In this document: piece after piece, positions 41,198 to 59,638 of the stretch
How positions within the stretch are numbered: the first letter of the stretch is position 1
Layout of the letters: every line of letters begins with the position of its first letter
From: Olegusella massiliensis
GTDB taxonomy: Bacteria > Actinomycetota > Coriobacteriia > Coriobacteriales > Atopobiaceae
Reading direction: 5' to 3'
Length of the DNA: 64,000 bases
Assembly: GCF_900078545.1 (NCBI RefSeq)
Contig: NZ_FLLS01000002.1
Location: forward strand, 310,001-374,000
The notes under the pieces: model-generated
What the model was told of the DNA's origin: nothing
Seen by the model: only the letters and a program-made list of their open reading frames with translations
Databases searched by the model: none
Made by a program: the position numbers and the translations under genes

Positions 41198-41234
41198 CCC
41201 GACACGAGAATCCAATCTCGTGTCGGGACTTTTT
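41198..41234 (+). terminator. Strong terminator after lctP
   Basis: A perfect 12-bp stem, CCCGACACGAGA (41198-41209) with its complement at 41216-41227, six-base loop, then ACTTTTTCT. It lies between convergent lctP and the giant surface protein gene and may serve both. Confidence 0.9.
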
Positions 41235-41252: not shown

Positions 41253-44200
41253 CTAAGGTAACACCACGTGAGGAGTTTCTCCAGCAGGACATATATCGCT
41301 TATACCATCGCCGTCTGCATCTACAACCTCAAGTTCTGTCAGAGGTCGCTTTCCTGCTGCTGTAGCGTGATATTGCACAAAACCCTTCCAACTATCAACC
41401 GTATAAACTTCCCCCATAAGACGTAGCGTGTCTTGTGCAGAACCATGTACTGCCCCATCAGCTTGAGCTTCAAAACTAAGGCCTTTACCTGTAGCGATAT
41501 CACTTTTTACTGCAATATGCTCTTTTGCTCCTCCCACAGAAAGCATATCTTTTGGCGTATCGGCACTCAGCAAAACATTGTGAGCACTACCCAGCCAGCC
41601 AGCCACTTTGATGGGCAGCTCGTTATATGTCATCACTTTACCCAAACGCTGATTGGTATAGCTTAAAGCTGTGGGAATAGAGACCTTCCATACTGCAGGA
41701 ACCCATTTAGCATGTACCGTTTGATCATGCCCAAGGGTCTGCCCAAATTCAAATACCTCATCAAAACTATCCGAACGATACCAGCCGCCAAATTGCCAAC
41801 CACTTGCTTGAGGAGCAGGAGGCTCTTGAGTTTTATCCTCAAATCCCAGCGTCTGGACCCCAACCTGCTTGCCATGCCCATTCATATCAAAATTCAACTG
41901 CGCTGTCTTGCGCACCCAAACTGCATGTAGGTACAAATCGCTGTCTGGCATGTACACATCGCTACCTGCCTTGAGCAGAGCGGTTTTATTCAGACTGCCA
42001 TTCTTTCCAAAAGCCTGTTCAAATTCCGCTTCAGAGAAGGCTTCATCTTTGGTTTTCGATTCTTCCCAAAGCTGTGCAAAAGGACTGGCAGAACTTTCCA
42101 TGCGATACCAACCCCTGAAGCTATAACCTCTTCTCTGCGCCATAGGAAGCACTACCACATCATCTTTATGGAGATCAGCTCGCTCAAAATTTCCTGCTTC
42201 ATTAGGATCGCCAAAATTTTCAATCACCCCTTGATGTGGCAGATAAGTCAGCTTATGCACACCAGGCGTACGACTAGACTCATAGAGACTATTAGTAGAA
42301 AACGACGTCCAGCCCGTCTGCGCACCTAAATATGACTCACTAAACGCAAAGGCTCCATCCTGCCAAATACTCACCGCACGATTGGCAAAGAAAGGATTGG
42401 CACCTTCAGGATTAATCGTATCCGTATCAGCTCCTACCTTTGCTTTATCGGGAAATCCTTGGGTGGGATAGCAGTGGATGGTGCCATTATCTAAAACCTG
42501 AATATTCATCGCATTGCCATGCGAAACCGCTTGCCCTACAGCTCTTGACCAGTCGCGATCTACCAGTTCAATCGCTTTGAGTTTGCTTGTAATCCCCTCA
42601 GCAAGTACACGAGTGCTGAAGACCCATTTAGACTCTGAAAACTCCCCTGCATTGGTATCACCTACCGCAAGTCTTGGGTAGTTGAGAGACTCTAAGGTAA
42701 GGTACGAGTTGGTAATAGGGATTGTTTCTCCGAGCACTCCGTTATCATTCCAATCTGCTGTAGGCAAGTAGTTCTGCAGCTGCTTTTTTTGGAAATACGC
42801 ATCACAAGTAGCACGTATCTGCTCGTCCGTCACTTCGTGAATCACAATTGACACATCTATATCGCCGAGATTTATCGCTAAAAAACCACCACGCAACAAG
42901 TCGGCCACATCAATTAAGGGTTGACCATTGTTAAAGTTTCCAGCCTTACCGCGGGATGCATATTCATCGAGACGAGCTGCGCCTGAAATTGTCAGGGTTG
43001 CCCCTACGGGAATAAGTTTGCCATCTTTACGCGTGTAAGTACCCACAATGGGAAAATCAAAAGCCGCAGTCATGCGCTGGCCCTCACGCATATCCGCAGC
43101 CTCCAGCAGCAGACCTGACTGGCAAACATACTGATTTGCCATGTGATGAGGAACATAATTGTGGATGGTGTCATTTAAGGCATTGACCATCACTTCTTCA
43201 GTACGAGAATGTTTGTCTTGACGATAGCTTGTATAGTGAGGAGCGCCTGTTACCGACAGCAGCTGTGGACGCAAAGCACCAGGGCCTACGAGTCCATCAT
43301 TTGCCAAAGCATCGGCAAGTTCAAAACTATGTGTTAGCTCTAAAGCAGTACTATCTGCCGCTCCCAAAGATCCATCGGCATAAAGATGCGCCCTATGTAC
43401 CTCTCCCGAGTCAAGGTCAACGGTTCTCAGTTCAAAGCTATTACCATCTATCTGCAGTTTTGAGTCTTTTGAGATAACTTTGTCGGAGCGTTTGGGTGCA
43501 AGCATAAACTCTTTTGGAGCAGCACCTGTTGCACCAACGCGTCCTTCACCAAGCGCAAATACACGTAGTCGATACGTAAAACCAGAGCCAAGACCCGAAA
43601 CTTTACAATGCGTATCACGAACCGTAGTCAGTGCAAACCAATTCGAATTATCAGCAAAAGTATCTTCCCCAGAGCTTTGCGCCCATACCTGATATTCCTT
43701 GGCATAAGGCACCGTGTCCCAACTAAGAGTTGCGATTCCCTCAGTTGTAATATCTGTCTTGACTTGATTGCTTGGAAGCTGAGAAGGCACGCGATAAAGA
43801 TGCCATTTCTGAGCCACAGAGCTATTTGGCTTATAAAGCTGGATGTTCGAACCATTTGCGGCTTTACCACCCTTGAGGTCAAGCACTTTTTCTCCATCAT
43901 CGGAAGTCAGCGTGCTCAAGTTCTTTGCATCGGTAGTGATAGCCCACTGAATAGGTGTGGAGGCTAGCTGAACATTTGAATCCTTTACCTTTGCAGTACC
44001 CAAAGCCTTTCCACTCAGCAAACCAACAATTTTGTAACTTTTAGTCTTTGCATCATAGTTAATCTTCCAGCATTGATTTTCACTGGATAGGGGCCACTTG
44101 CGGTCGGTGCGATGGTAAAGCTGTACATTAGTACCCACCGTCGTGTGTCCTCCAGCAGCATCCAGAACAAAAGCATCATCAGCGGCACTCGCAATGACAT

Positions 44201-44384
44201 ACACGCCATCTTGGATGCGCTGAGCAGCTTTAAGCTCGGGAGCCCAAGCAGCAAAACCCGCAAGCAACACAAAGGTGAGCATAAGCACTAGCAAAGCGCG
44301 ACCAAGTCTGTACGCAAAAGCTCGTTCGTGCCTATAGAAATCTTGTACATATACACGTACGGAAGTACCTGATTCACAGGTCAT
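41253..44384 (-). CDS. Giant secreted lectin/Fn3/InlB-repeat protein of the sortase operon
   Basis: About 1043 aa surface protein. After a membrane/signal segment (ALLVLMLTFVLLAGFAAWA) comes one ricin-type trefoil (about 60-200, LDLKGGKAANGSNIQLY), a fibronectin III-like domain (about 205-295), a large middle region, and InlB-type repeats (GYSFRGWYR, GWQFGGWYRS). The C-terminal module begins SIPTALSYTNQRLGKV and is shared with the 305-aa protein two genes upstream. It ends VDADGDGISDI...HVVLP with no sorting signal. The ATG at 44384 has GAGG 8 bases ahead and lies five bases past the preceding stop. Probable adhesin or pilus-like tip. Confidence 0.75.
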   Translation of the reverse strand: MTCESGTSVRVYVQDFYRHERAFAYRLGRALLVLMLTFVLLAGFAAWAPELKAAQRIQDGVYVIASAADDAFVLDAAGGHTTVGTNVQLYHRTDRKWPLSSENQCWKINYDAKTKSYKIVGLLSGKALGTAKVKDSNVQLASTPIQWAITTDAKNLSTLTSDDGEKVLDLKGGKAANGSNIQLYKPNSSVAQKWHLYRVPSQLPSNQVKTDITTEGIATLSWDTVPYAKEYQVWAQSSGEDTFADNSNWFALTTVRDTHCKVSGLGSGFTYRLRVFALGEGRVGATGAAPKEFMLAPKRSDKVISKDSKLQIDGNSFELRTVDLDSGEVHRAHLYADGSLGAADSTALELTHSFELADALANDGLVGPGALRPQLLSVTGAPHYTSYRQDKHSRTEEVMVNALNDTIHNYVPHHMANQYVCQSGLLLEAADMREGQRMTAAFDFPIVGTYTRKDGKLIPVGATLTISGAARLDEYASRGKAGNFNNGQPLIDVADLLRGGFLAINLGDIDVSIVIHEVTDEQIRATCDAYFQKKQLQNYLPTADWNDNGVLGETIPITNSYLTLESLNYPRLAVGDTNAGEFSESKWVFSTRVLAEGITSKLKAIELVDRDWSRAVGQAVSHGNAMNIQVLDNGTIHCYPTQGFPDKAKVGADTDTINPEGANPFFANRAVSIWQDGAFAFSESYLGAQTGWTSFSTNSLYESSRTPGVHKLTYLPHQGVIENFGDPNEAGNFERADLHKDDVVVLPMAQRRGYSFRGWYRMESSASPFAQLWEESKTKDEAFSEAEFEQAFGKNGSLNKTALLKAGSDVYMPDSDLYLHAVWVRKTAQLNFDMNGHGKQVGVQTLGFEDKTQEPPAPQASGWQFGGWYRSDSFDEVFEFGQTLGHDQTVHAKWVPAVWKVSIPTALSYTNQRLGKVMTYNELPIKVAGWLGSAHNVLLSADTPKDMLSVGGAKEHIAVKSDIATGKGLSFEAQADGAVHGSAQDTLRLMGEVYTVDSWKGFVQYHATAAGKRPLTELEVVDADGDGISDICPAGETPHVVLP

Positions 44385-44389
44385 TTTAC

Positions 44390-44806
44390 TCACCTCTCTC
44401 GATTCCTCTGTGTTGTAGTTTTGCCTGCAAGTAAAGCAGCCCCACCAGCAAGGGCAAAGCCCGCAGCCGCAAGGACATATCCCATAAGATCAATGCCTGT
44501 TTTGCCATAGCTCGTCGTTTCTTCTGCAGGCTGAGAGGGCGGGTCATCCTCTACCGAAAGTGATAGATCAATTGCTCCCTTGTTAGCGCTACCCGATTCT
44601 TTAGAACCACTCCATTGGTCGCTTTGCGAGTCGTATATCTGGTCACCTATCAGCTGTCCGCTTTCTGCAGATAGAACCCCAGCACCTTGGGCAAAACATA
44701 TCTCAGGACTTATAGAAAACATCAAAGCAAGGGTCAAAACCACAGCAGTAAACAGGCTTATCGCAGGAGGGCTTGGCACACTCCCTGCTTTTCTTCTTGC
44801 AATCAT
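44390..44806 (-). CDS. Small secreted protein with sortase-like C-terminal anchor
   Basis: 138 aa. A signal peptide (LTALVL-type TAVVLTLALMFSISPEICFA) precedes a motif YDSQSDQWSGSKESGSANKG that is shared with the next protein, an acidic Pro/Ser linker, and a C-terminal tripartite tail: SYGKTG, a hydrophobic stretch (LMGYVLAAAGFALAGGAALLAG) and KTTTQRNRER. This has the layout of a sorting signal, but with YGKTG in place of LPxTG. It is the only anchored candidate in an operon that begins with a sortase. No match known to me. Confidence 0.7.
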   Translation of the reverse strand: MIARRKAGSVPSPPAISLFTAVVLTLALMFSISPEICFAQGAGVLSAESGQLIGDQIYDSQSDQWSGSKESGSANKGAIDLSLSVEDDPPSQPAEETTSYGKTGIDLMGYVLAAAGFALAGGAALLAGKTTTQRNRER

Positions 44807-44822
44807 GCGTATCAGCCCCTAC

Positions 44823-45740
44823 CTACTGCGTCACAATATCCTTGAATTCACTGGCGACCTTTGCAGACTGGCCAGCTTCAGCATCCTTGTTTTCGTTCCA
44901 AGCCTCACGCGCAGAGACGATACGGTAGCTGCTCTCGGGAGCCTCATCACCTTTCAGAATCGCAGCATACTCACCTGCTGCCAGAGTTTGCTCACCTACC
45001 CCATTGGGAGACTTCATCGAAGTGGTCTCTTTGATTTCAGAACCACCATCGCGAGGACCCTGCAAAATTTTGCCTGTCTCTGCCCAGACTTTTACTGCCT
45101 TACCCGCAGGTAAAGCACCCTGAACATTAATGATGTAGTCATCAGAGGTATCAACTGTACCAACACGCATACCGCTGTACTTGATGGCAGTAGGTATCGT
45201 TAAGAGATATGTACCGTTCGCATGTTCAACGCCTCCACCGTCAGGCTTATCATCGCCATCTACACTGGCACCGTCTACCCAAGCAGCATCTTTGGTGGAA
45301 TACAGCAAATCAACTTTGCCGTCATTAGCACGACCTTTGTCCTTAGCAGCACTCCAGGTTTTGGTCTGAGAGTCATAAACCTGATACCCTTCAAGGGCAA
45401 AGTCTGAATCGGGTCTTATCTCACTCCCTGGTCCACTCGTACCTGGAGTCTGTCCGCCCTCATGAGGCGCTTTAGTTGCGTCATCTACCAGAGCAGAGCG
45501 ATACCGCACCGTTGCAGTCCAGTCACCTGCTACATAGATATGACCATTCATCTGAATGTTATCTGTAAAGTCACAGCCATAAGTCACCGGAGCAGTCGCA
45601 GCTTTATGCACGGGCGACTCAGCATTTGCTTGCTCAGCCATTGCCACAGCTGGTGTCGAAGATAAAGCACAAGCAATACCTGCACTTATGACGGCAGTTA
45701 CGCGAGCAGAGTGAAGCAAATGAGCAATATTTATTTGCAT
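44823..45740 (-). CDS. Secreted protein with IPTA-type domain
   Basis: 305 aa with a signal peptide cut after AVAMA-EQ. The middle has YDSQTKTWSAAKDKGRANDG, matching the small protein downstream, and the C-terminal half starts TIPTAIKYSGMRVGTVDTS, matching the last module of the giant protein. It ends without an anchor. AAGGA precedes the ATG. The shared pieces suggest the three proteins form one structure or compete for one partner. I recognise no named family. Confidence 0.65.
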   Translation of the reverse strand: MQINIAHLLHSARVTAVISAGIACALSSTPAVAMAEQANAESPVHKAATAPVTYGCDFTDNIQMNGHIYVAGDWTATVRYRSALVDDATKAPHEGGQTPGTSGPGSEIRPDSDFALEGYQVYDSQTKTWSAAKDKGRANDGKVDLLYSTKDAAWVDGASVDGDDKPDGGGVEHANGTYLLTIPTAIKYSGMRVGTVDTSDDYIINVQGALPAGKAVKVWAETGKILQGPRDGGSEIKETTSMKSPNGVGEQTLAAGEYAAILKGDEAPESSYRIVSAREAWNENKDAEAGQSAKVASEFKDIVTQ

Positions 45741-45836
45741 GTGGGATATCCTTTCTCAACATTTATGTCTTTGGGAACAGCGCAACAGGCTACGGTGAGC
45801 GAGCTCGCGAACAATATCGACAACTTTTTGGCATAA

Positions 45837-46373
45837 CTAGCCCACCTTCACACGAAAGTCCATGGTCATGCCATTTGCCTGTTGTTGTGTCTTGATATGA
45901 AATGCCGAAAAAACCACCTGGCCACGGTGTTCCCCTGTAGGAACTTCACGTTCAAGATCTATCTCATCAAGATGAGTTCCTGGAGCTAGGCTCTGAGGGT
46001 TTTTATCTATATGCTTGGCATTCCATACAATTTCATTGTCAGAGAATTTGCCATCATCATCGCAATCCACGTAGACCATAGGAACCATATCAACAGGATT
46101 ACCCTGGGGATTTGCAAGCAACAACCCCACTCGACTTGCACCAGATTCCCAAAACACATCGGGCACACTCTGAAAGCTGGTGTATTCCTCAATCACAGCA
46201 TGCGCGTCCACATTTGACTTGCGCAGGCCCGTCCTATCACCCACATAATCCACTGCATTAACAAGGTAGTTTTGCCCTGTAAGGACAAAGGCAACTCCTA
46301 CTGCTACAAGACCAATACCGCATACTCCAAGCGCAAGCTGCCAGAGAGATACTCTCTTTTTGATATGTTTCAC
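45837..46373 (-). CDS. Membrane-anchored exported protein after the sortase
   Basis: 178 aa with an N-terminal helix (LALGVCGIGLVAVGVAFVL) and an external domain: VPMVYVDCDDDGKFSDNEI, SLAPGTHLDEIDLEREVPTG and VVFSAFHIKTQQ. The pattern of a PG-x-x-[LI]-x-x-I-x-L turn followed by G-x-x-x-a-x-v-x-F is common in exported partner proteins beside Firmicute sortases. Start is GTG with AAGGAG 7 bases ahead, overlapping the sortase stop as GTGA. Role probably structural; not known. Confidence 0.7.
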   Translation of the reverse strand: MKHIKKRVSLWQLALGVCGIGLVAVGVAFVLTGQNYLVNAVDYVGDRTGLRKSNVDAHAVIEEYTSFQSVPDVFWESGASRVGLLLANPQGNPVDMVPMVYVDCDDDGKFSDNEIVWNAKHIDKNPQSLAPGTHLDEIDLEREVPTGEHRGQVVFSAFHIKTQQQANGMTMDFRVKVG

Positions 46374-47137
46374 CTAGCGTCTCCTTCGATGCAATAAATG
46401 ACTGCTCTTTCGTTTGACCAGCTTGTATAACTGCAGGTAACAAGGCGTACTACATGATTTGGAGAGGACGCATTATCAAGCGTGATGTCAGCTTTTAAAA
46501 GCTCTTTTTGATACCACGCAACAAAATCTTGCTCATCTGAAAATTTAAGCTTGGGGCCCTCTGCGGCAGCGTTAACTACCCTCAGAAAAGCTGGTCGTAA
46601 ACACAGTTTTCTTGTAGGGGTCTGTAGCAAAATCTGGCTATGTACTTTTGCCCATGAGGCATCAAGATACTTACTCAAGGGAGCAAACATTGCACCGTCT
46701 GGTGAATGATGTCCATATATCACTGCATTCGGCGCTAATACATTGCCCTTGCAAGCTGCATCAAGATAGGCACATCCATAAATATTTTTTCTACCTTCTA
46801 AATCATGCGTAAGATAAAAAAGTGGTTTATCCACATCAGCGGCAACAATAGGTAATGAGACTGGTGTATCAGGCACGCTGAGCCAGGCAATAACCTCTGG
46901 ATGCTCGCGGTGCAGACTCTCCCAGTCCACTACAGGAAATATTGGCTCATCGGGCACATTGACCGACTGCTCTGCACTTATTTGCGACCCCGCTACGAGA
47001 TAGCGCTGAGCATCATTTGCTGCAAAACGCATAAGTACAAAAGAGACAACTATGCCTACAGAAAGCCCCAGAGAGCAGATTCCTGTCGAAAGCAAAACAG
47101 TCTTATACCACAGTCGTCTTGTAGAGCGCCGCAACAT
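46370..47137 (-). CDS. srtB: Class B sortase
   Basis: Cysteine transpeptidase, about 255 aa, N-terminal membrane anchor (LLSTGICSLGLSVGIVVSFVLM). The catalytic His is in NAVIYGHHSPDGAMF, the Cys in LVTCSYTS and the Arg in NERAVIYC. It has the SrtB-type long insertion before the Cys (KLKFSDEQDFVAWYQ). The ATG at 47137 has GGGGG upstream. First gene of the operon, so its substrates are probably the four proteins behind it; only the 138-aa one has an anchor-like tail. Confidence 0.9.
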   Translation of the reverse strand: MLRRSTRRLWYKTVLLSTGICSLGLSVGIVVSFVLMRFAANDAQRYLVAGSQISAEQSVNVPDEPIFPVVDWESLHREHPEVIAWLSVPDTPVSLPIVAADVDKPLFYLTHDLEGRKNIYGCAYLDAACKGNVLAPNAVIYGHHSPDGAMFAPLSKYLDASWAKVHSQILLQTPTRKLCLRPAFLRVVNAAAEGPKLKFSDEQDFVAWYQKELLKADITLDNASSPNHVVRLVTCSYTSWSNERAVIYCIEGDAR

Positions 47138-47372
47138 AATCACCCCCATCAGCTCTGATAAAAGGCACTGTAGAGGGGACAGCTTGGATTTAACTTGTTG
47201 GTTTACTGACCGACAGCCGCAGGCAGTCTCGCAACGGCAGCTTGGATGAGCTGGTAAAGTAAAAGTCGCAACAACGCTTTAAAAAAGCAAAAGTGAAAAA
47301 GTCATAAAGAAAGGGTTGTGGATATCCACAGTCCTTTCACAAGAATGCAACCCTATAGTACTGACGCTTTGT

Positions 47373-47693
47373 TTACTGCCAGTTTTGCGTGTACTCAATG
47401 AGCGTATCTCTTAGGGTCACTAAACTCTCATTACTCATAAATACACGAGAGGACAGCACCCCAGAAGCAGTCCCATCCGCTGCGGGAGGCGTATCTACCA
47501 ATACAAAGTCAATCATCGATTGCCCACCATTGGTACGAATCATTGCAATATCAGCATGTACGCCTCTGCGTACATCAGGCGTTGCTTCTACAGCAATGGC
47601 ATTGCCCTCAAGGGATCCTTGAGCGGGATCGGGCAAGCTATCAGCAGAAATACGTGGGAGTTGATTGGTGTTATTTGCTTCGTGCTTTGCCAT
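47373..47693 (-). CDS. DUF3467-like protein, copy A
   Basis: 106 aa from the ATG at 47693, which has AAGGAG 6 bases ahead and starts 30 bases after the NlpC fragment. The core DIAMIRTNGGQSMIDFVLVD, a loop, then SSRVFMSNESLVTLRDTLIEY resembles DUF3467 (x-N-x-A-x-V...F-x-x-DF, SRI-x-[ML]-[ST]P). No signal peptide. Identical in protein sequence to copy B. Function unknown; DUF3467 proteins are small and widely distributed. Confidence 0.65.
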   Translation of the reverse strand: MAKHEANNTNQLPRISADSLPDPAQGSLEGNAIAVEATPDVRRGVHADIAMIRTNGGQSMIDFVLVDTPPAADGTASGVLSSRVFMSNESLVTLRDTLIEYTQNWQ

Positions 47694-47723
47694 GCGGGAC
47701 TCCTTCTCAAATACCTTATCCAA

Positions 47724-48239
47724 CTAGTTGAACAAACGAATAATGCCACGAGGAGAATGTTTATAACGCCATATATTGCTAGTGATGACACCTTCACCAG
47801 GGGCAGCCTCAATCATGCGATCGTTACCCAAGTAAATAGCAATATGACCTTTCCAAGAGATAAGATCGCCACGCTTGCGACTACTCAACGATACGTGCTT
47901 TAGGTCTCCCCTCGTCCAAAAGGCGTTAGCGTATGCCGCATGGTATCCACCATTCAGACCTTTGTAATAGTGGTTATAGGGATTCATCGAACCAAAGTTC
48001 ATGCCACATGCATAAGCGCACTGCAAGACTAGGCCTGCGCAGTCAACACCCACACCAGGCGCGCAGGCATAATCCCAAATATAGGTTGTTCCTAAATAAT
48101 CCTTCGCACGCTTAATAAAGGTTTCGATGCAATCACTGCGTGAAGCGGTTCGCGAAATTCTTGAGGGGCTTGCATAGTTGAAAGGCCAGCTTTTATTACG
48201 CCAAGCACCCCACACGGTGTTTGGACTGAGCTGAACCAT
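47724..48239 (-). pseudogene. NlpC/P60 catalytic fragment, truncated copy
   Basis: 171 codons nearly identical to the C-terminus of the 871-aa autolysin (50929-53544); I see two residue changes (Ser/Asn and Asp/Asn). The catalytic Cys motif VDCAGLVLQCA and the His motif GHIAIYLG are intact, but the signal peptide and all lectin repeats are missing and the reading frame is closed by a TGA (about 48325) beyond the breakpoint at 48266. No ribosome site fits the internal ATG, so it is probably not exported and likely silent. Confidence 0.8.
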
Positions 48240-48362
48240 CCATGAGGGGTTTTGATAGCCAAGTTTTCCGTGGGAAGCAGTAATCGTCTTTCCCCACGTC
48301 TTACTGCTAACCCTACTTGCTTTTCATCTTGAAGCAAAACATTGAAACAGCAGCTTTATTCA

Positions 48363-50492: not shown

Positions 50493-50514
50493 CGGGTTGA
50501 TGGCCCACATAAAG

Positions 50515-50542
50515 AAAGGACTGTGGATATCCACAGTCCTTT
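50515..50542 (-). terminator. 28-bp perfect palindrome, probable terminator
   Basis: AAAGGACTGTGGAT is followed directly by its complement, centred on GATATC, so there is no real loop. On the minus strand TTTCTTTA follows, 36 bases after the DUF3467 stop. Copy A (47310-47337) has two changes and is imperfect. Confidence 0.6.
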
Positions 50543-50577
50543 CACAAGAATGCAAGCCTACAGTACTGACGCTTTGT

Positions 50578-50898
50578 TTACTGCCAGTTTTGCGTGTACT
50601 CAATGAGCGTATCTCTTAGGGTCACTAAACTCTCATTACTCATAAATACACGAGAGGACAGCACCCCAGAAGCAGTCCCATCCGCTGCGGGAGGCGTATC
50701 TACCAATACAAAGTCAATCATCGATTGCCCACCATTGGTACGAATCATTGCAATATCAGCATGTACGCCTCTGCGTACATCAGGCGTTGCTTCTACAGCA
50801 ATGGCATTGCCCTCAAGGGATCCTTGAGCGGGATCGGGCAAGCTATCAGCAGAAATACGTGGGAGTTGATTGGTGTTATTTGCTTCGTGCTTTGCCAT
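50578..50898 (-). CDS. DUF3467-like protein, copy B
   Basis: 106 aa, identical to copy A. It lies 30 bases behind the stop of the full-length NlpC autolysin with its own AAGGAG site, so in the parental arrangement it is the last gene of an autolysin operon. Same DUF3467-type core (MIDFVLVD, SSRVFMSNE). No export signal, so it acts in the cytoplasm if made. The identity of the copies argues for recent duplication or gene conversion. Confidence 0.65.
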   Translation of the reverse strand: MAKHEANNTNQLPRISADSLPDPAQGSLEGNAIAVEATPDVRRGVHADIAMIRTNGGQSMIDFVLVDTPPAADGTASGVLSSRVFMSNESLVTLRDTLIEYTQNWQ

Positions 50899-50928
50899 GC
50901 GGGACTCCTTCTCAAATACCTTATCCAA

Positions 50929-53544
50929 CTAGTTGAACAAACGAATAATGCCACGAGGAGAATGTTTATAACGCCATATATTGCTAGTGATGACACCTTC
51001 ACCAGGGGCAGCCTCAATCATGCGATCGTTACCCAAGTAAATAGCAATATGACCTTTCCAAGAGATAAGATCGCCACGCTTGCGACTACTCAACGATACG
51101 TGCTTTAGGTCTCCCCTCGTCCAAAAGGCGTTAGCGTATGCCGCATGGTATCCACCATTCAGACCTTTGTAATAGTGGTTATAGGGATTCATCGAACCAA
51201 AGTTCATGCCACATGCATAAGCGCACTGCAAGACTAGGCCTGCGCAGTCAACACCCACACCGGGTGCGCAAGCATAGTTCCAAATATAGGTTGTTCCTAA
51301 ATAATCCTTCGCACGCTTAATAAAGGTTTCGATGCAGTCATTGCGCGAAGCAGTTCGCGAAATTCTTGAGGGGCTTGCATAGTTGAAAGGCCAGCTTTTA
51401 TTACGCCAAGCACCCCACACGGTGTTTGGACTGAGCTGAACCATCCATGAGGGGTTTTGGTAGCCAAGTTTATTGGGTACCGAAGTCTTCTGAAAACGCC
51501 AGCCCTGAGCAGCACTATCATTTGAATTATAGGCATCAACATTCGTACCACTAGCTGTTTTTCCACCAGCCACATCTAGAACTGTTCCCAGCGCAGAGAC
51601 AATCCGTAGACCGTACTCACCCATTTTAAAACGCCACTTCTGAGCAGCAGAGTTATTGCTGGTATATTGCTGCACGTTTGCACCAGAAGTAGAAGAACCA
51701 CCCTTAATATCGAGCACTTTGAGACTATTGCAATTGACCAGGCTATACCAACCATTACCAACTGACTTGAGCCACCACATTTGGCACGCTTGATTGTTAT
51801 CCGCAGCCATAACAACATTTGCAGCATTAGCACTGGAAGCACCATTTACCGCAAGTCGTAGCGTCGAAGAGACCGTAGAAGCTATTTCGTAAAAACCCTC
51901 ATGAGGAGCAAAGCTCGTCTTGGTAAGCATCCAACCTTGTGCAGCAGTTAAATTACGACGGTATATTTGAATATTCGAACAATTGGCAACTTTACCACCA
52001 CTTAGATCAAGTACCTTATCATCAATAGCAGAGCGGAATTCAAAGCCATACCCTAGCGTTGCACCAACAATCCATTCGCGTAGTGCACCAGTTTGATAAC
52101 CCTGCTGGGCATTGTTTTGTTGCACCACAACATACTCGCCAGAATTAACATTCTGCAAAGTTACGTTACCATTAGCAAGCGTGCGAATATACCACTTTTG
52201 AGCTGCTGTTTTATTAGAACGATACAACTGAACATTGGCACCTATATTCCAAGAACCGCTTGCCACGTCGAGTACATAGCCAGAATTTTTTGCCGTAGAA
52301 ATAATATAGGAGCCTTCAGCTATCCTTGGATGATATGTATCAATGCTAAAGATATTTGCATTCGGCGTACGTTGACTCACAAGCTTACCGTTCACGAAGG
52401 CGAGTGCCAAGTCATCACGTATGGCAGAAACTAACTTCCATCCTCCCTCAGCAGCCACCAGAGCCCACTGCTGAGAAAAATTACCACTAGCTTGCTGCTG
52501 ACACACAGCACCACCAGGTAAAATATCATCTTGATTTAACTGCACTGCTTTGGCCGAGCCAGCATTAAGCAGTTGATAGTAGCCTGTTTTTGCATCGCGC
52601 TTCAGATAAAATGCCTGAGCAACAGTGTTATTACTCTGGTACGCCTGCAATTGTCTACCGTTGTCTTTGCTTGCACCAGGCACATCTATATTCTTATTAT
52701 TCGACTTTAAAGTATAAAAATCTTCATCAATTTTTTCGTTTGCACTAGGCGCAGATCCCGCCAAGCAAGTAAAGCTAAAGCGCTGAGCTGAGGTTCCATT
52801 TGAGTCGTACAATTGCAAGTTTGTTTTTGGTGCCGTCTTGCCACCACTCAAATCTGCAACAAAGTCAGCATCCAAAGCAGAGCGAAGTAAAAAGGTGTTG
52901 TCTTCATTTTGGATAATTGCCCACAGCTGTGCCAAACTCCCGTCATAACTCTTCTGATAAATATTTACTGTATTTGCTGCTTTATTACCATCAACTGTCA
53001 AGGCTTTATTGCTACCAATATTTGTCAGCGTGCGCCACTGCTGCCCGTCGCGTTCTACCGTTGCTACACGCCAAGACTGCGCTGCTGTGTGATTGTAATC
53101 CCAAAGTCTGACGTTAGCCTTATCCGTTTTTGACCCACCTTCGACATCCAAGACGCCGCGGATACGCGAAGAAGAAATTACGTAGTCACCGTCAGCTAAA
53201 CCCCGCGAAGGCTCATCGGCTCTAGTTTCAACTTCCTTAGCAGGAATGTCCACGTCCGCATCTGTCGTAGGCGCATTCATGTTCTGAACAGATTCCACGG
53301 GGACAACCGCAGTCTCTTTTTCATCGGGAAGAGTTGTGTCAACCTGTTTTTCAGTTACTGTTTCTTCATTATTACCAGCGAGCGACTGAGAGCTAACAGC
53401 AGCTGACTGCTCAAGTGAGCTTGACTGTTCTGAAACAAGCGCATCATCCGCAAGCGCCAGTTGCGGCGCAAGTATACCCAACGAAAGACTTAAAATTGTG
53501 CCTGTGACCGCAAGAATTAAATGATTTATATGCTTAAGTTGCAT
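50929..53544 (-). CDS. Secreted ricin-repeat autolysin with NlpC/P60 domain
   Basis: 871 aa. Signal peptide cut near ALA-DD, a Ser/Glu-rich linker, then four ricin-type beta-trefoils (about 12 subrepeats of the LDVxGG...GxNVQxYxxNxxxAQxW kind, residues about 120-680), then an NlpC/P60 peptidase (about 715-871) with Cys in VDCAGLVLQCAYACG, His in KGHIAIYLGN and the end NIWRYKHSPRGIIR. It would cleave wall peptides after binding glycans. No anchor or SH3b domain, so the lectin part is the likely targeting device. GGAGG precedes the ATG. Confidence 0.9.
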   Translation of the reverse strand: MQLKHINHLILAVTGTILSLSLGILAPQLALADDALVSEQSSSLEQSAAVSSQSLAGNNEETVTEKQVDTTLPDEKETAVVPVESVQNMNAPTTDADVDIPAKEVETRADEPSRGLADGDYVISSSRIRGVLDVEGGSKTDKANVRLWDYNHTAAQSWRVATVERDGQQWRTLTNIGSNKALTVDGNKAANTVNIYQKSYDGSLAQLWAIIQNEDNTFLLRSALDADFVADLSGGKTAPKTNLQLYDSNGTSAQRFSFTCLAGSAPSANEKIDEDFYTLKSNNKNIDVPGASKDNGRQLQAYQSNNTVAQAFYLKRDAKTGYYQLLNAGSAKAVQLNQDDILPGGAVCQQQASGNFSQQWALVAAEGGWKLVSAIRDDLALAFVNGKLVSQRTPNANIFSIDTYHPRIAEGSYIISTAKNSGYVLDVASGSWNIGANVQLYRSNKTAAQKWYIRTLANGNVTLQNVNSGEYVVVQQNNAQQGYQTGALREWIVGATLGYGFEFRSAIDDKVLDLSGGKVANCSNIQIYRRNLTAAQGWMLTKTSFAPHEGFYEIASTVSSTLRLAVNGASSANAANVVMAADNNQACQMWWLKSVGNGWYSLVNCNSLKVLDIKGGSSTSGANVQQYTSNNSAAQKWRFKMGEYGLRIVSALGTVLDVAGGKTASGTNVDAYNSNDSAAQGWRFQKTSVPNKLGYQNPSWMVQLSPNTVWGAWRNKSWPFNYASPSRISRTASRNDCIETFIKRAKDYLGTTYIWNYACAPGVGVDCAGLVLQCAYACGMNFGSMNPYNHYYKGLNGGYHAAYANAFWTRGDLKHVSLSSRKRGDLISWKGHIAIYLGNDRMIEAAPGEGVITSNIWRYKHSPRGIIRLFN

Positions 53545-53578
53545 GTCTCATCCTCCAAACAAAGACATAAGCATAAAT

Positions 53579-56167
53579 TTACACACGTGCTGATTGAGAT
53601 GTCGGCCTAAGTACAACATCCCACCACTGATCTTTCCATCCACCCATTGAACGGTAATATGCCAAGGGACGGGTACAAATCTCATAACCAGTCTGATCGC
53701 CAGGTTTACCACCTGTAATACCACCCCACTCATTTTGATGAGCAGCAACTTCGGTGGTATTCGAAACAATTCCTGCTGTGTGATTCAAATCCGAAAGCAG
53801 AATATCTCCTACTTGAAGATTTCGCACATCACTAATGTAGAGTACTTGCCAGCCGCGACTCTTTAGATTAGAACGCATGTCTCCTGTCCAAGACGCACTA
53901 CCTGTTTTGAAGCCAGCAGCTCTCAAGCTAGCAATCACCAAAGATGAGCAATCATAATCACCACGCTCACCCCAACGATAAACTTGGTCATAGCCATGTT
54001 TATTATTATTGGCAATAGCAACCATTCGCTGGGAGAACTTGTCAATAGAGGCTCCTATGCCCTTTGCGCTCGACTTACGTAAAAGCCAGCCTTGGGCTAT
54101 TGTGCCATTATTTTGATACTGTTGGACATTGGTCCCTGATGACAGCTGGCCCGCTGTAATGTCCAGCACCTTACCCGAACCATTCACAAAGGTAAAACCA
54201 GCATCACCAAAAACAATCTGCCATTTTTGTCCCAGCTCATTATTTGTTGTGTATTGAGCAACGTTAGCTCCATTAGACTGAGATGAGTCCTTAACGCCGA
54301 GAGCTTTGTTTGAGCTTGCAGATACGATGCGATACTGATTGCCACCTAAAGAGCTAACACGCCATGTCTGTGCTGCACTACTATTGGCTTTATATATTTG
54401 AACATTTGCACCATCATTTCCCGAGCCACTCCTCACGTCTAAAGCTAAATCACCATTACCCGCTGTACGAATTTCGTACCAACCCTCACCATCAAAAACT
54501 TGGGTGTCTTCAAACGTCCAGAGCTGTGCATCAGATCCATTCTGCTGTTTCAAATCTATATTTGCTGAATTTTTAGCAACACCACCCGCAATATTGAGAA
54601 CAGTACCCAAAGAACTTTGGAGACGAAACCCACCATGCGAGCCCAAATGGCCCAAACTAAAAGCAATCGACCAGTAGCTTGCTTTATCCGCTGTGGTCTG
54701 TATTACGTTGTTACCTTCATGTGAAAGATATAAACCAGAGCCAATATTTCTGAGCAGCCAACCAGCTGAACTTTGCTTGAGCTGCCACCGTTGCCCATAT
54801 CCCCCATTCCAAGAATAAGATTGGACATTGGCACCAACTCTCGTGCTCCCACCGCATACATCAAGCACCTGAGAAGTATGATTTACGCTACTGACGCGAT
54901 AAAAACCTTGGGTGATACTGGGACTCCACTTAGATAAATCCCAAAGCTGGGCAGGAGAGTTAGCGGCAACATCTGCGGTCTGTAGTACACAATCTATATC
55001 TGCAAGAGCGTGACGGGTCTTTGCATTAATAAAGTAATAGCTACCAGCACCATCAGATACTAACTCCCACAGCTGATAAAGATTATTTTTTTGATTTGTC
55101 TGCTGTGTTAACACAGTACCTGCAACAATGTCTGATGCAGAAGTACTAAGCGAAAGCCCCGATTTATCATTACGAATACGCCAGTACTTACCTTCACGAG
55201 AAAGATAAAAGCCCTGAGCCATCGTATTGTTCTTGCGATACAGTTGAACTTTTGCACCAGCCTTGTCAGACGCGCCAGTTACATCAACTGTAAGAGCACT
55301 TGAGCGAGCAGTAAATGTATATGACCCCGCTTCAGGCTGTACGTCGGCGTTTTCTACAGGATATAAAGACTCTGTTGGGTCACTCACACCAGCAAAACCT
55401 GCAAAAACATCTATCAAATTCCAAATTTGTGCATCTGTCCCATTAGATTTATAAATCTGAAGATTAGTACCGTTTGTACTATGAGAACATCTGACATCAA
55501 GTACAAAGTTACCCGCTAAAGCAGAACGTAAACGTGCTTGGCCTTTTTGTTTATTCACCCAGTCAACATACCAGCGCTGTGCTGCAGTGCCGTTTTGTAC
55601 ATACTGCTGGACATTGGTACCGTTCGCTGTCTTTGCGCCAGCGACATCTAACACCAAACCACTCTTCTTATTTTTAATAATATATCCGTCTTTGTCTGTA
55701 TGAAAACTCCATTCCTGAGCGCCTGTACCATTTGCTTCATAAAGCTGCACATTAGCACCGTTTTTCTTGGAGCCACCCTTTACATCAACAGAGCCACGTC
55801 CAGGCACAGCAGATTCAATGACAAACGAGTGACCCTGTATGGCCATCTCATCAGGCGACCTAGTATCTACAGATCTCTCAGATACAGACTCTTGTATCTG
55901 ATTTTCGTTTGCCGTAGTCGCAACTTCCTGATTGGGTGGAATCACTTCAGTAACATCATTAGATTGGAGTGAGACCAGATCTGAAGTACCGTGAGAGCCT
56001 GCGTCACCCTGCAAGCCTGCAGAAATTGCTGCCTGTGATAAAGAGGGCGATGCTGCATCATTGCTTGCATCCTCAGCAAAAGCAAGCGTTGGCGCACTGA
56101 GAGCAAGCATAGAGCCCAGTGCAAGCGTCGACAAAATCTGCTTTATCTGTAGACTATGGGTGCACAT
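53579..56167 (-). CDS. Secreted ricin-repeat autolysin with Amidase_5-type domain
   Basis: About 862 aa. Signal peptide cut near AFA-ED, a linker, four ricin-type trefoils (about 105-690; GANVQLYEANGTGAQEW and similar) and a C-terminal hydrolase: IANNNKHGYDQVYRWGERGDYDCSSLVIASLRAAGF, in outline YDCSS as nucleophile and NHTAGIVSN for the His. This is the phage-endolysin-type Amidase_5/NlpC-like fold. Start ATG at 56167 follows GAGGAG; the TTG before it is too close. The downstream NlpC gene begins 34 bases after its stop, so the two may form an operon. Confidence 0.88.
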   Translation of the reverse strand: MCTHSLQIKQILSTLALGSMLALSAPTLAFAEDASNDAASPSLSQAAISAGLQGDAGSHGTSDLVSLQSNDVTEVIPPNQEVATTANENQIQESVSERSVDTRSPDEMAIQGHSFVIESAVPGRGSVDVKGGSKKNGANVQLYEANGTGAQEWSFHTDKDGYIIKNKKSGLVLDVAGAKTANGTNVQQYVQNGTAAQRWYVDWVNKQKGQARLRSALAGNFVLDVRCSHSTNGTNLQIYKSNGTDAQIWNLIDVFAGFAGVSDPTESLYPVENADVQPEAGSYTFTARSSALTVDVTGASDKAGAKVQLYRKNNTMAQGFYLSREGKYWRIRNDKSGLSLSTSASDIVAGTVLTQQTNQKNNLYQLWELVSDGAGSYYFINAKTRHALADIDCVLQTADVAANSPAQLWDLSKWSPSITQGFYRVSSVNHTSQVLDVCGGSTRVGANVQSYSWNGGYGQRWQLKQSSAGWLLRNIGSGLYLSHEGNNVIQTTADKASYWSIAFSLGHLGSHGGFRLQSSLGTVLNIAGGVAKNSANIDLKQQNGSDAQLWTFEDTQVFDGEGWYEIRTAGNGDLALDVRSGSGNDGANVQIYKANSSAAQTWRVSSLGGNQYRIVSASSNKALGVKDSSQSNGANVAQYTTNNELGQKWQIVFGDAGFTFVNGSGKVLDITAGQLSSGTNVQQYQNNGTIAQGWLLRKSSAKGIGASIDKFSQRMVAIANNNKHGYDQVYRWGERGDYDCSSLVIASLRAAGFKTGSASWTGDMRSNLKSRGWQVLYISDVRNLQVGDILLSDLNHTAGIVSNTTEVAAHQNEWGGITGGKPGDQTGYEICTRPLAYYRSMGGWKDQWWDVVLRPTSQSARV

Positions 56168-56211
56168 CAATTCTCCTCTGCCAGTTTTGCTAGATCATGA
56201 TTACTCCGTAT

Positions 56212-56275
56212 GATATATCCTAGCTTGTATTTATCCGCAAAACTCATGTATTAGTTACATGAGCCCGTTTTGACA
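56212..56275. promoter_or_regulatory. Divergent promoter region with operator-like inverted repeat
   Basis: CTCATGTA (56243-56250) is complementary to TACATGAG (56256-56263), loop TTAGT. On one side lies TTGCGG-17-TATATC for the minus-strand amidase (complements at 56235-56240 and 56212-56217), on the other TTGACA (56270-56275) toward the GH25 gene, though its -10 is unclear. The repeat sits midway and could bind a shared regulator. Confidence 0.45.
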
Positions 56276-56341
56276 AGTTATTAATACGTGCTTTGTCTAG
56301 CAAATATTTTTCTCTATCTTTACGGGAAAGGAATGCAGTCC

Positions 56342-59300
56342 ATGGTTAATAATTCCAAGTCAAATATCAAAAACTATCTATTCCGTAAGCGTCATACCAT
56401 TGCAGCTATGGCTATCGCACTTCCCCTGTTAGCTACTCCAGGCATTGCATTTGCTGTGGATGAGACACCAAGCGGCGAAGTTATTCCTACGGCAATCACC
56501 GAAGCTTCAGTGACCTCCACCTCCGATCAGACCCCCAGTCTGATGGTTGCTGCTCCCACTTCTGAAATAAACAACATCGATGCTGCCGATGTAACTCCCT
56601 CTACACAAGCTCAGACAACCGAGATCAAGCAGGACGAGGCTGCCGGTACAACCAATGGAGAGCCTGCCGTCTCGACCTCCCCAAATACCACTGCGACCTC
56701 TATAAAACCAATCACTTCTACAAATACTGTGCCAGAACATGCACCACAAAATCGAGAGGTTCATGCAATACTCTCCGATGGACTTTATGAAATAGCCACT
56801 TTTAGTAATTCTCATAAGGTTATCGATGTAACTGGTGGTTCTCGAAACAACGGCACTGCCATACAAACATATCGCTCTAATGGCTCTGGTGCTCAGATTT
56901 GGCGTGTTAAACATCTTGGTGATGGCATTTACACCTTACAAAACCTGAGGTCAGACAAATATCTTGATGTTCCATCTGCCAAAGCAGTAAAGGGCGCAAA
57001 AATACAGCAATACTCAGGAAACTCAACGCGCGCGCAACAATGGGAAATCGTCCCCGATGAAAAACGAGCAGGCTACTTTACCCTGCGTACACATCTCGAA
57101 AACAGCCTTGCCCTCGATACAGAAATGAACAATATCACACTTAAGCTTGCAGAAGGTAAAGATTCACAAGCGTTTACCTTTGAGAAGATTACCGCTGCCA
57201 TAAGCAATGGTATCTATGAGATATACAACGTCAATTCTCACAAGCCCATTGAGATACCTGGTGGTAACCAAAAAGAAGACACACCCATTTCAATTTATAT
57301 GCCCAACGATTCAGCAAGTCAGCGCTGGCGCATCACACTTGCCGGGAAAGATTGCTACACCATTCAAAATGTAAAAACAGGCAAATATCTTTCTGCAAAC
57401 ACCACCAGAGGGAAACTGAATTCTGTTATTTCACAGCGTGCTGCTAGCTATGCAAATAATCAAATGTGGAAACTCAATCCCCTTGAAGATAGTGGCATGT
57501 TTACGGTGACATCAATACTTGATAGCACCAAGGCTCTTGATGTCACTGGTGCAAAAACCGCAAATGGAACTAAGTTGCAACTTTATAAAAGTAATAACAC
57601 ACTTGCACAGTATTTTTCACTTTCAAAAATTGAACAATGCCTTGCTGATGGAGTCTATGAGCTCAACAATCTCAACTCTCATCTTGCAATTGGAGTAAAG
57701 TCAGGAAGCATTGCACATGGAAGCAATATTCAACAGGTAAGCGCTCAGCCAGATTCGTCTCACTATTTTTATACCCACTACAACCATGAGGACGGATACT
57801 ACACCTTCACTAATGTTAAAAGCGGTAAACGTCTTGAAGTCCAAAACGGATCTAACGCAAAAGGCGGCAATATCCAGCAAGGTGAAGTAAGCAATGCGTT
57901 TGCCCAGCGCTGGTCTATTCGAACAGATAATAATACCCCTGGCCTGTATGGAATCTATTCTTCTATAGGCGGGCTTGCACTTGATGTACGTGGAGGGTCA
58001 ATTACCAACGACGCAAATATACAAGTGTGGACCTCAAATAACTCGAGTGCACAACGCTGGACATTTAAGCATATTAATCAGTGGCTCAACGATGGTGCCT
58101 ATACGATTGTTGCCGCAAATAACAACAATAACGTTTTGGCTGTGACAGATGGGGACCGTAACGATTCGTCAGCCATAACTACACAGTCCAGAAAGACTGG
58201 TAATACCTACCAAAAATGGTATCTAAACTGGGAAGGCAATCTTATCAAGATCGTTAATATATCCACTGGTAAAGCACTTGATATTCGTGGCGGCAAAACG
58301 ACCAATGGTACTATTATCCAACAATATCAAAGCAACAACAGCAAGGCTCAGCGCTGGTTGCCTATTATGACGGACTCTGGCATTATGCTGCAATCTGCTC
58401 TTGATGCGCGAGTAGTTATAGATATCTCTGGCGGAAGTAAATCTTCTGGAGCAAAAATACAGACGTATTTCAGCAATAACTCCTTGGCGCAGAGATTCTT
58501 ATTTGTAAGTTCTCACTTGTTTGATAGTGAGGTAATTTACACTATTTATGGTGCTGCTGAAAACCCTTCTGACAAACCCAATCAAGTCATAGATATTCAA
58601 GGCGGTTCCACTAAGAGTGGCGCACGTGTACAAATGTATGCTGCCAATGACTCCCCTGCTCAAAGGTTTAAGCTTATCCCAGTTGGTGAGGATAATTATC
58701 GCCTGCAAAATATAAAATCTGGGCTTTTCATCACTGCAAATCCCTCTGGGATACTCACGCAGACAGCTACAGATAACTCCAGCACAATATGGCTACCTCG
58801 TTGGGATTTTGATACCAACTCCATCGTCTTGATGTCATCTAGCCAGCTACAAGTAATGACAGCAGCCAACGGTCAACTAACCCTCACGCCCTTAGCGGCA
58901 AATAATCCAGCCCAAGGGTTCCTCTTTACCAATACCTCTCAACAAAAGCGTCTCCATGGTATAGATATTTCAGACTGGAATGCAGACATAAACATAGCAC
59001 GTATACCAGCAGACTTTGTCATTGTGAAGGCAACACAGGGTACCACCTATAAAAACCCCTATTTTCGCAAGCATGCAGCAGAAACACTTGCTGCAGGTAA
59101 ACTACTTGGTCTATATCATTTCGTAGACACAACAAAAGGTGCGATTAACGAAGCTCGACATTTTGTGAATATTATTAGAGGTAAAGCAGGAGAGACCAAC
59201 TACATCGGTAAAGCAGCGCTGTTTCTTGATTGGGAAAACAACGATATTTCGCATCAAAACAATATCAACAAAGGACCAAATTATGCAAAGGCATTCCTTG

Positions 59301-59638
59301 ATGAAGTAAAGCGCTTAACTGGAGGCGTAAAACCTCTTATTTATATGAGCAAAAGTGTAACTGGCAATAGCTATAACTGGCAGAGCGTTGCTGACGCTGG
59401 TTATGGTCTTTGGATGGCTCAGTACCTCTATAAATATTATGATAACGGCGTAAAAGGTCACGTAGATAACCCCACTCTCATTTACAACGATGCTGAAGAT
59501 GGTCAACGCGAGTGGAGCAAACCTACCCTCTATCAATACACTTCAAAAGGACAACTACCTAACTATGATAAGTATCTCGATATGAATGTGTTCTATGGTA
59601 GTGTTTCAGACTGGAATGATTTAGCGGCATGGCATTAA
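56342..59638 (+). CDS. Secreted ricin-repeat GH25 muramidase
   Basis: About 1098 aa. Signal peptide cut near AFA-VD, a Thr/Pro-rich linker (about 40-140), five ricin-type trefoils (about 145-870, fifteen subrepeats of widely varying fit) and a C-terminal GH25 lysozyme with GIDISDWN, FVIVKATQGT, LYHFVDT and the catalytic D-x-E in FLDWENND. It would cut the MurNAc-GlcNAc bond. The ATG at 56342 has AAAGGA 9 bases ahead; the one at 56333 abuts it. It is divergent from the amidase gene and has its own terminator. Confidence 0.92.
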   Translation: MVNNSKSNIKNYLFRKRHTIAAMAIALPLLATPGIAFAVDETPSGEVIPTAITEASVTSTSDQTPSLMVAAPTSEINNIDAADVTPSTQAQTTEIKQDEAAGTTNGEPAVSTSPNTTATSIKPITSTNTVPEHAPQNREVHAILSDGLYEIATFSNSHKVIDVTGGSRNNGTAIQTYRSNGSGAQIWRVKHLGDGIYTLQNLRSDKYLDVPSAKAVKGAKIQQYSGNSTRAQQWEIVPDEKRAGYFTLRTHLENSLALDTEMNNITLKLAEGKDSQAFTFEKITAAISNGIYEIYNVNSHKPIEIPGGNQKEDTPISIYMPNDSASQRWRITLAGKDCYTIQNVKTGKYLSANTTRGKLNSVISQRAASYANNQMWKLNPLEDSGMFTVTSILDSTKALDVTGAKTANGTKLQLYKSNNTLAQYFSLSKIEQCLADGVYELNNLNSHLAIGVKSGSIAHGSNIQQVSAQPDSSHYFYTHYNHEDGYYTFTNVKSGKRLEVQNGSNAKGGNIQQGEVSNAFAQRWSIRTDNNTPGLYGIYSSIGGLALDVRGGSITNDANIQVWTSNNSSAQRWTFKHINQWLNDGAYTIVAANNNNNVLAVTDGDRNDSSAITTQSRKTGNTYQKWYLNWEGNLIKIVNISTGKALDIRGGKTTNGTIIQQYQSNNSKAQRWLPIMTDSGIMLQSALDARVVIDISGGSKSSGAKIQTYFSNNSLAQRFLFVSSHLFDSEVIYTIYGAAENPSDKPNQVIDIQGGSTKSGARVQMYAANDSPAQRFKLIPVGEDNYRLQNIKSGLFITANPSGILTQTATDNSSTIWLPRWDFDTNSIVLMSSSQLQVMTAANGQLTLTPLAANNPAQGFLFTNTSQQKRLHGIDISDWNADINIARIPADFVIVKATQGTTYKNPYFRKHAAETLAAGKLLGLYHFVDTTKGAINEARHFVNIIRGKAGETNYIGKAALFLDWENNDISHQNNINKGPNYAKAFLDEVKRLTGGVKPLIYMSKSVTGNSYNWQSVADAGYGLWMAQYLYKYYDNGVKGHVDNPTLIYNDAEDGQREWSKPTLYQYTSKGQLPNYDKYLDMNVFYGSVSDWNDLAAWH

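Follow-up and report, generated by a model that had tools for sequence, protein, structure and literature searches.

We propose that five neighbouring minus-strand genes of the oral actinobacterium Olegusella massiliensis encode an adhesin complex that is rooted by a sortase and held together by β-strand donation. The genes lie at positions 41253-47149 of a 64,000-nucleotide stretch of contig NZ_FLLS01000002.1 (310,001 to 374,000; hereafter the window) and encode a class B sortase, a membrane protein of 178 residues (p178), a secreted protein of 305 residues (p305), a protein of 138 residues with a sorting-signal-like end (p138) and a lectin protein of 1046 residues (the giant). The locus is real and conserved. 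It belongs to a known kind of surface cluster, of which it is a variant whose domain family has no name. That its products form a lectin adhesin complex anchored by p138 and linked through shared modules is, in our view, likely; for the more specific proposal, in which strand donation joins the parts, we estimate a probability of about 0.45.

The complex would be rooted in the wall, assisted by the membrane, and would work like the surface complexes of WxL/csc clusters. Cleaved behind YGKT and attached to the wall by the sortase of the operon, p138 would form the base, a donor only, displaying just the short amphipathic strand GAIDLSLSV. The link, p305, in a number per chain that is conjectural, would be donor and acceptor at once, combining the strand GKVDLLYST with an acceptor β-sandwich. 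The giant would be the tip, an acceptor only, with a terminal acceptor module that lacks the strand, InlB repeats and a ricin-type lectin that may bind a sugar ligand. Anchored in the membrane through its N-terminus, p178 could act as a chaperone or platform. The p138-p305-giant chain is proposed because suggestive fold matches to pilins, the distribution of donors and acceptors, and precedents for strand insertion point to it together.

Gene order and domain content of the operon

According to the list of open reading frames (ORFs), the genes run from 47149 down to 41253 in the order sortase, p178, p305, p138, giant. The sortase and p178 genes overlap by 4 bp, as do the p138 and giant genes, while 96 bp separate p178 from p305 and 16 bp separate p305 from p138, which bears out the close packing reported in the original prediction, a note made from the sequence alone. 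In Pfam and NCBIfam, matches were confined to the sortase and, in the giant, to the ricin-type lectin and the Listeria-Bacteroides (InlB) repeats; p305 and p138 had none, and p178 had no credible one. The features are as follows.

46370-47149, minus strand: class B sortase, 259 residues; N-terminal membrane segment; catalytic motifs GHH, TCSY and NER intact
45837-46373, minus strand: p178, 178 residues; N-terminal transmembrane segment (residues 13-31) and one extracellular domain; core partner
44823-45740, minus strand: p305, 305 residues; secreted connector with signal peptide, no anchor and a permuted module
45486-45590, minus strand: p305 residues 51-85; terminal two strands of the module, moved to the N-terminus (profile positions 113-147)
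45288-45395, minus strand: p305 residues 116-151; N-strand motif common to p138, proposed donor strand
44976-45209, minus strand: p305 residues 178-255; first part of the module (TIPTAIKYSGMRVGTV...), inside the profile match at residues 143-255
44390-44806, minus strand: p138, 138 residues; signal peptide, N-strand motif and sorting signal; small, putatively wall-anchored protein
44546-44653, minus strand: p138 residues 52-87; N-strand motif common to p305
44393-44509, minus strand: p138 C-terminal sorting-signal-like region (13.7 bits, below cutoff); YGKTGID, hydrophobic stretch, basic tail
41253-44393, minus strand: giant, 1046 residues; ricin-type lectin, InlB-type repeats and C-terminal module; no sorting signal, no C-terminal membrane segment
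43791-44216, minus strand: giant, ricin-type β-trefoil region
41706-41897, minus strand: giant residues 833-896; best-scoring Listeria-Bacteroides (InlB) repeat
41349-41687, minus strand: giant residues 903-1015; C-terminal module, normal strand order
41198-41227, unstranded: terminator-like hairpin with a 12-bp stem, directly 3' of the giant

A shared domain that is permuted in p305

The giant and p305 share one β-sandwich domain (BLASTP E 5e-5), represented by SIPTALSYTNQRLGKV in the giant and TIPTAIKYSGMRVGTV in p305. We built a profile of the intact module from the small proteins of three related genomes (G294, G252 and G034) and the giants encoded in the window, in Atopobium sp. oral taxon 810 F0209 (G031), in G294 and in EGG1_1 (G315), excluding p305. 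It nevertheless detected p305 with an i-Evalue of 6.5e-22, in two pieces of reversed order: profile positions 113-147 aligned with residues 51-85, and positions 1-108 with residues 143-255. The p305 homologues of F0209 and EGG1_1 gave the same two-piece reversed match, as did that of a further genome, G459, which lay outside the profile build (106-146 at residues 47-89, 1-109 at 148-270). Because of this reversed order we regard p305 as carrying the domain in circularly permuted or split form, with the last two strands at the N-terminus in p305 and its three homologues. The original prediction had quoted two shared motifs, both present as written, and the modules behind them are real by BLASTP, profile and shuffling; it had overlooked that the p305 module is permuted and continues at residues 51-85 as a relocated domain end. 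Its remark that it knew of no family name for either module agrees with our Pfam and NCBIfam searches, in which no family was found; for the β-sandwich module, none of seven members had a convincing Pfam match.

An AlphaFold model of the intact module, from a Denitrobacterium metagenome-assembled genome and a nine-sequence alignment, reached a mean predicted local distance difference test (pLDDT) score of 61.5 and a predicted template modelling score of 0.59, with a core of about 70-80 and a low-confidence N-strand region. The relocated piece of p305 corresponds to the last two strands of this model (137-153 and 159-169). If these hairpins were exchanged in trans, the last p305 could not be completed by p138, which has no hairpin; this argues mildly that the relocated hairpin packs in cis. 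In a Foldseek search of the PDB, the five best matches were the pilins CooA, CfaB (twice), CooA and CS20, all of the donor-strand type, and entries containing FimG, FimF and CsuE followed lower down. The resemblance of the modelled domain to donor-strand pilins, its best matches, is thus suggestive, although not significant by E-value.

Several other matches were set aside. A sequence match of the module profile to the PDB entry of BURRH (E 5.5e-4) was rejected, as no single stretch passes alone and BurrH is a helical repeat protein. Low-complexity matches in G028 and G029, inspected in G028, were dismissed as chance, and a weak G028 match in the p305-profile search likewise came from a low-complexity protein.

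A strand motif distributed as donors and acceptors would be

A second element links p305 to p138. Over 36 residues the two proteins are identical at 18 (E 2e-9), a score that none of 1000 shuffles attained. This N-strand motif precedes the domain and reads Y-D-S-x-x-x-x-W followed by G-[KA]-[VI]-x-[LV]-x-[YL]; its hydrophobic residues fall on alternate positions. Among 1144 ORFs, a profile of the motif retrieved the homologues of p305 and of p138 as well as the G294 and G252 small proteins. In the window, F0209 and EGG1_1 it did not match the giant, and it found nothing else convincing; in G034 the match is partial. Strand donation is favoured because the motif occurs in p138 and p305 homologues and is absent from these three giants.

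The giant of G459 offers further support, since it carries module 1, a weak N-strand motif and module 2 in one chain. We read it, from its sequence, as a natural fusion of the tip with the next, or first, link. Its motif resembles that of p305 weakly, 3-8 of 1000 shuffles being as similar.

The layout equals that of WxL/csc clusters

WxL/csc clusters encode a small WxL protein, a large protein with a C-terminal WxL domain, a membrane protein with DUF916/DUF3324 and frequently also a very small LPXTG protein (PMC1534035, PMC9772566, PMC10599100). The operon resembles these clusters of Lactobacillales and Listeria in grouping a small module protein, a large adhesin with a C-terminal module, a single-pass membrane protein and a tiny LPXTG-type protein, and by the published definition (PMC1534035, PMC9772566) the layout is the same: the module is C-terminal in the large protein, makes up most of the small one and is accompanied by the tiny protein.

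The sequences themselves are different. The module profile compared with WxL by hhalign gave a probability below 1%, against 99.4% for small versus large WxL as positive control, and Pfam detected no WxL domain in the modules of p305, p138 or the giant and no DUF916/DUF3324 in p178 (0.4% by profile). Further differences are that the sortase is of class B, not class A as in the two WxL clusters with a sortase gene that we read (Enterococcus gilvus and E. innesii), that p178 is anchored N-terminally rather than C-terminally and has one domain, and that the p305 module is permuted. The modules are thus not WxL by sequence; the architecture is nonetheless very close, and on present comparisons the layout equals that of a WxL/csc cluster, although no homology to WxL was detected.

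The likeness extends to the strand. As p305 and p138 do in the operon, a small WxL protein and the small LPXTG-type protein have an N-terminal strand in common in each of the five WxL clusters we read that encode the latter (L081, L084, L086, L088 and L093). There the strand resembles [NE]G-x-[IV]-x-F, with 0 to 15 of 1000 shuffles as good. A pattern check of eight large WxL proteins did not find the strand motif. The LPXTG genes of L093 and L084 seem to be broken or frameshifted. The 2006 description of csc proposed interactions of unknown nature and called the CscD alignment uninformative (PMC1534035), and in AlphaFold models a WxLIP strand is inserted into WxL and completes its sandwich (PMC10599100). 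No report of the strand sharing came up in an incomplete literature search. The like layout and strand sharing of WxL clusters, together with the modelled WxLIP insertion, support strand donation in the operon.

p138 carries an unusual putative sorting signal beside a class B sortase

The assignment of the sortase to class B in the original prediction is upheld by its matches to TIGR03064, an NCBIfam equivalog (76.8 bits, below the cutoff of 153.75), and to Pfam Sortase PF04203 (27.7 bits, above the cutoff of 26.6), and by its closest solved chains, which are all sortase B. Its GHH, TC and R, the catalytic His, Cys and Arg, are conserved with the G459 sortase and with the only other sortase match in the genome (L001 1102-2058; G000:C2 about 880.7-881.7 kb). 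This second sortase is class B-like and is encoded between two genes that, from our own reading of the translations, we take to be purE and purM. As no other sortase was found in the genome, it probably handles the LPxTG proteins.

A hydrophobic stretch at the C-terminus sets p138 apart from p305 and the giant; YGKTGID comes before it and a basic tail after it. Ten other proteins of the genome gave sorting-signal matches; the last has no recognisable signal, and the C-termini of the remaining nine show LPKTG, LPQTG, IPQTG, TPQTG, SPQTG, LPATG or LPQTS. Compared with these nine, p138 has the sole signal without the xPxT[GS] pattern, and it is therefore the odd one, beside an odd sortase. Where a sortase is adjacent, p138 proteins carry YGKTG (window and F0209) or YARTG (G459); the homologue in EGG1_1, with no adjacent sortase, has LPRTGD. 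At the sequence level these few independent cases are consistent with a dedicated sortase/substrate pair. In the literature searched, no paper linked a class B sortase with Atopobium.

The predicted surface assembly, with a large lectin tip on an anchored base, a sortase and a membrane partner, thus stands in outline, with its roles corrected. The probable anchored base is p138, p305 being an unanchored connector; the plural "sortase substrates" is not supported, for p305 and the giant have neither a sorting signal nor a C-terminal membrane segment.

p178 and the module proteins form the conserved core

The intact-module profile matched 6 of 398 Coriobacteriia genomes, and the p305 profile added one from a third family (G459). 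In a sample of the phylum, the only match was the window's own genome; a scan of 84,980 genomes with a single degenerate pattern, which gives no measure of absence, returned four loci. In all seven genomes p178 or a p178-like domain adjoins the small module protein; in G034 the domain belongs to a 399-residue protein. A sortase is adjacent in three of the seven (window, F0209 and G459). We therefore take p178 and the module proteins to be the core and the sortase to be an optional addition. Loss of co-occurrence with the sortase, which had been named as an argument against a single system, accordingly touches the sortase and not the rest.

In G294 and G252, large SpaA-repeat adhesins are encoded directly upstream of the pair of p178 and small module protein (L021 3-3476; L022 10377-14369); one of them has a T-Q ester domain, and the N-strand motif was not found in either.

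Relatives of p178 reach further: a profile comparison of its family with p178-like proteins of Eggerthellaceae gave 98.8% (E 6.7e-17). Eggerthellaceae genomes (L057-L079) hold up to seven p178-like genes, several in operons with a giant and a secreted module protein, and the members scanned had no credible Pfam family. Such operons share with the present one the row of InlB-repeat giant, p178 relative and secreted module protein, but homology of their small modules to ours was not found (0.1-0.8% by profile comparison), and neither p138 nor a sortase was seen in the stretches read.

Weighing the alternatives

Strand exchange has precedents in two other systems. Chaperone-usher pili (FimH/FimG, CFA/I) have a tip with an N-terminal lectin and a C-terminal pilin-like domain and subunits with an N-terminal strand and a sandwich, and they supply the best fold matches of the modelled module; the operon differs in being Gram-positive, in lacking an usher, in having a putatively wall-anchored strand as its base and in showing no sequence relation, with a fold match that is not significant. 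In the TasA fibres of Bacillus, subunits insert N-terminal strands and TapA donates a strand (PMC9674648, PMC10151520). They are a Gram-positive precedent for fibres in which N-terminal donor strands connect β-sandwich subunits and a helper contributes a strand, but they have no lectin tip, the abstracts describe no such sorting-signal protein, and no family match to them was found here.

Several observations weigh against strand donation or against the chain proposed from it. The Foldseek matches to pilins have E-values of 0.014-0.08 and template modelling scores of 0.31-0.42 on a medium-confidence model, and the same matches could come from a generic Ig-like sandwich; the AlphaFold model of p305 itself, from three sequences, has a pLDDT of 27.8. 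Sorting-signal profile TIGR01167 gives p138 13.7 bits, below its cutoff of 15.9. p138 is present in four of four sets with a permuted p305, but was not seen in the three other sets. The G459 giant lies on contig C160 and the operon on C44; their linkage is inferred from the matching ends of the two contigs. Finally, the strand common to p138 and p305 might serve to bind some third protein, for example p178.

The same parts might indeed take the same roles through conventional contacts between domains, the shared motif serving as a docking tag, for p178 for instance, in a single fixed complex without strand exchange. The operon, the co-occurrence and the evidence for the anchor apply equally to this explanation, and the low confidence of the N-strand region in the model suits it; what fits strand donation better is the division into donor-only, donor-plus-acceptor and acceptor-only proteins, together with the alternating hydrophobic residues, the permutation of edge strands and best fold matches that are pilin-like. 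We give docking a substantial chance, short of even. A true WxL/csc member diverged past recognition, with p305 as the small WxL protein, the giant as the large one, p178 as WxLIP and p138 as CscD, would account for the same four components: a large protein with a C-terminal module, a transmembrane partner and a small LPXTG protein are all there (PMC1534035, PMC9772566). A wider p178-like set that includes the Eggerthellaceae proteins gave 15% with the DUF3324 half in a single comparison (E 0.0017; reversed controls 0.16 and 0.5), a weak hint in its favour. The missing WxL and DUF916/DUF3324 matches, the lack of a match for p178 itself and its N-terminal membrane anchor make such descent improbable.

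The adjacent dedicated sortase also brings to mind a sortase-polymerised, Spa-type pilus with p305 and the giant as substrates, and the class B-type Spy0129 is described as acting in pilus assembly (PMC3019223). Such a pilus is very unlikely, and we rejected it: within the window p305 and the giant lack the sorting signals it would need, and four of the seven relatives have no sortase beside the operon. Isd systems are the usual setting of a class B sortase, and the sortase is all that speaks for a haem-uptake locus here. That explanation is scarcely credible and was rejected as well, since Pfam and NCBIfam searches of the five proteins, whose domains include a lectin and InlB repeats, detected no NEAT domain.

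Neighbouring genes

Beside the operon, a 964-bp unit is duplicated with 98.5% identity (window 47303-48266 and 50508-51471). It carries a gene for a 116-residue DUF3467-like protein and the NlpC/P60 end of an 871-residue lectin protein, and a 632-residue DUF6020 membrane protein is encoded between the copies. In F0209 the unit is present once, and the alignment lacks the inserted stretch. Three large neighbouring proteins encoded at 50929-59638, next to the operon, have 8-11 matches each to ricin-type repeats and end in a domain of wall hydrolase type (NlpC/P60, Amidase_5/ELLD-like and GH25).

Significance

At its widest, strand donation would make the operon a sortase-rooted Gram-positive donor-strand fibre, in which a wall-anchored mini-protein with the sole function of donating a strand seeds a strand-linked chain with a lectin tip, the same logic explains WxL/csc, and a dedicated sortase of class B uses Y-x-[KR]-T-G, a signal without proline; that all of this should hold jointly is rather doubtful. 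The locus provides a domain family without a Pfam or NCBIfam name, permuted in p305, and a candidate pair of class B sortase and substrate with an unusual proline-less signal. It bears on what keeps WxL-type surface complexes together in gut and oral commensals and on the role of the tiny LPXTG proteins of these complexes, and it suggests a simple rule of assembly, in which the base would be donor only, the link donor and acceptor, and the tip acceptor only.

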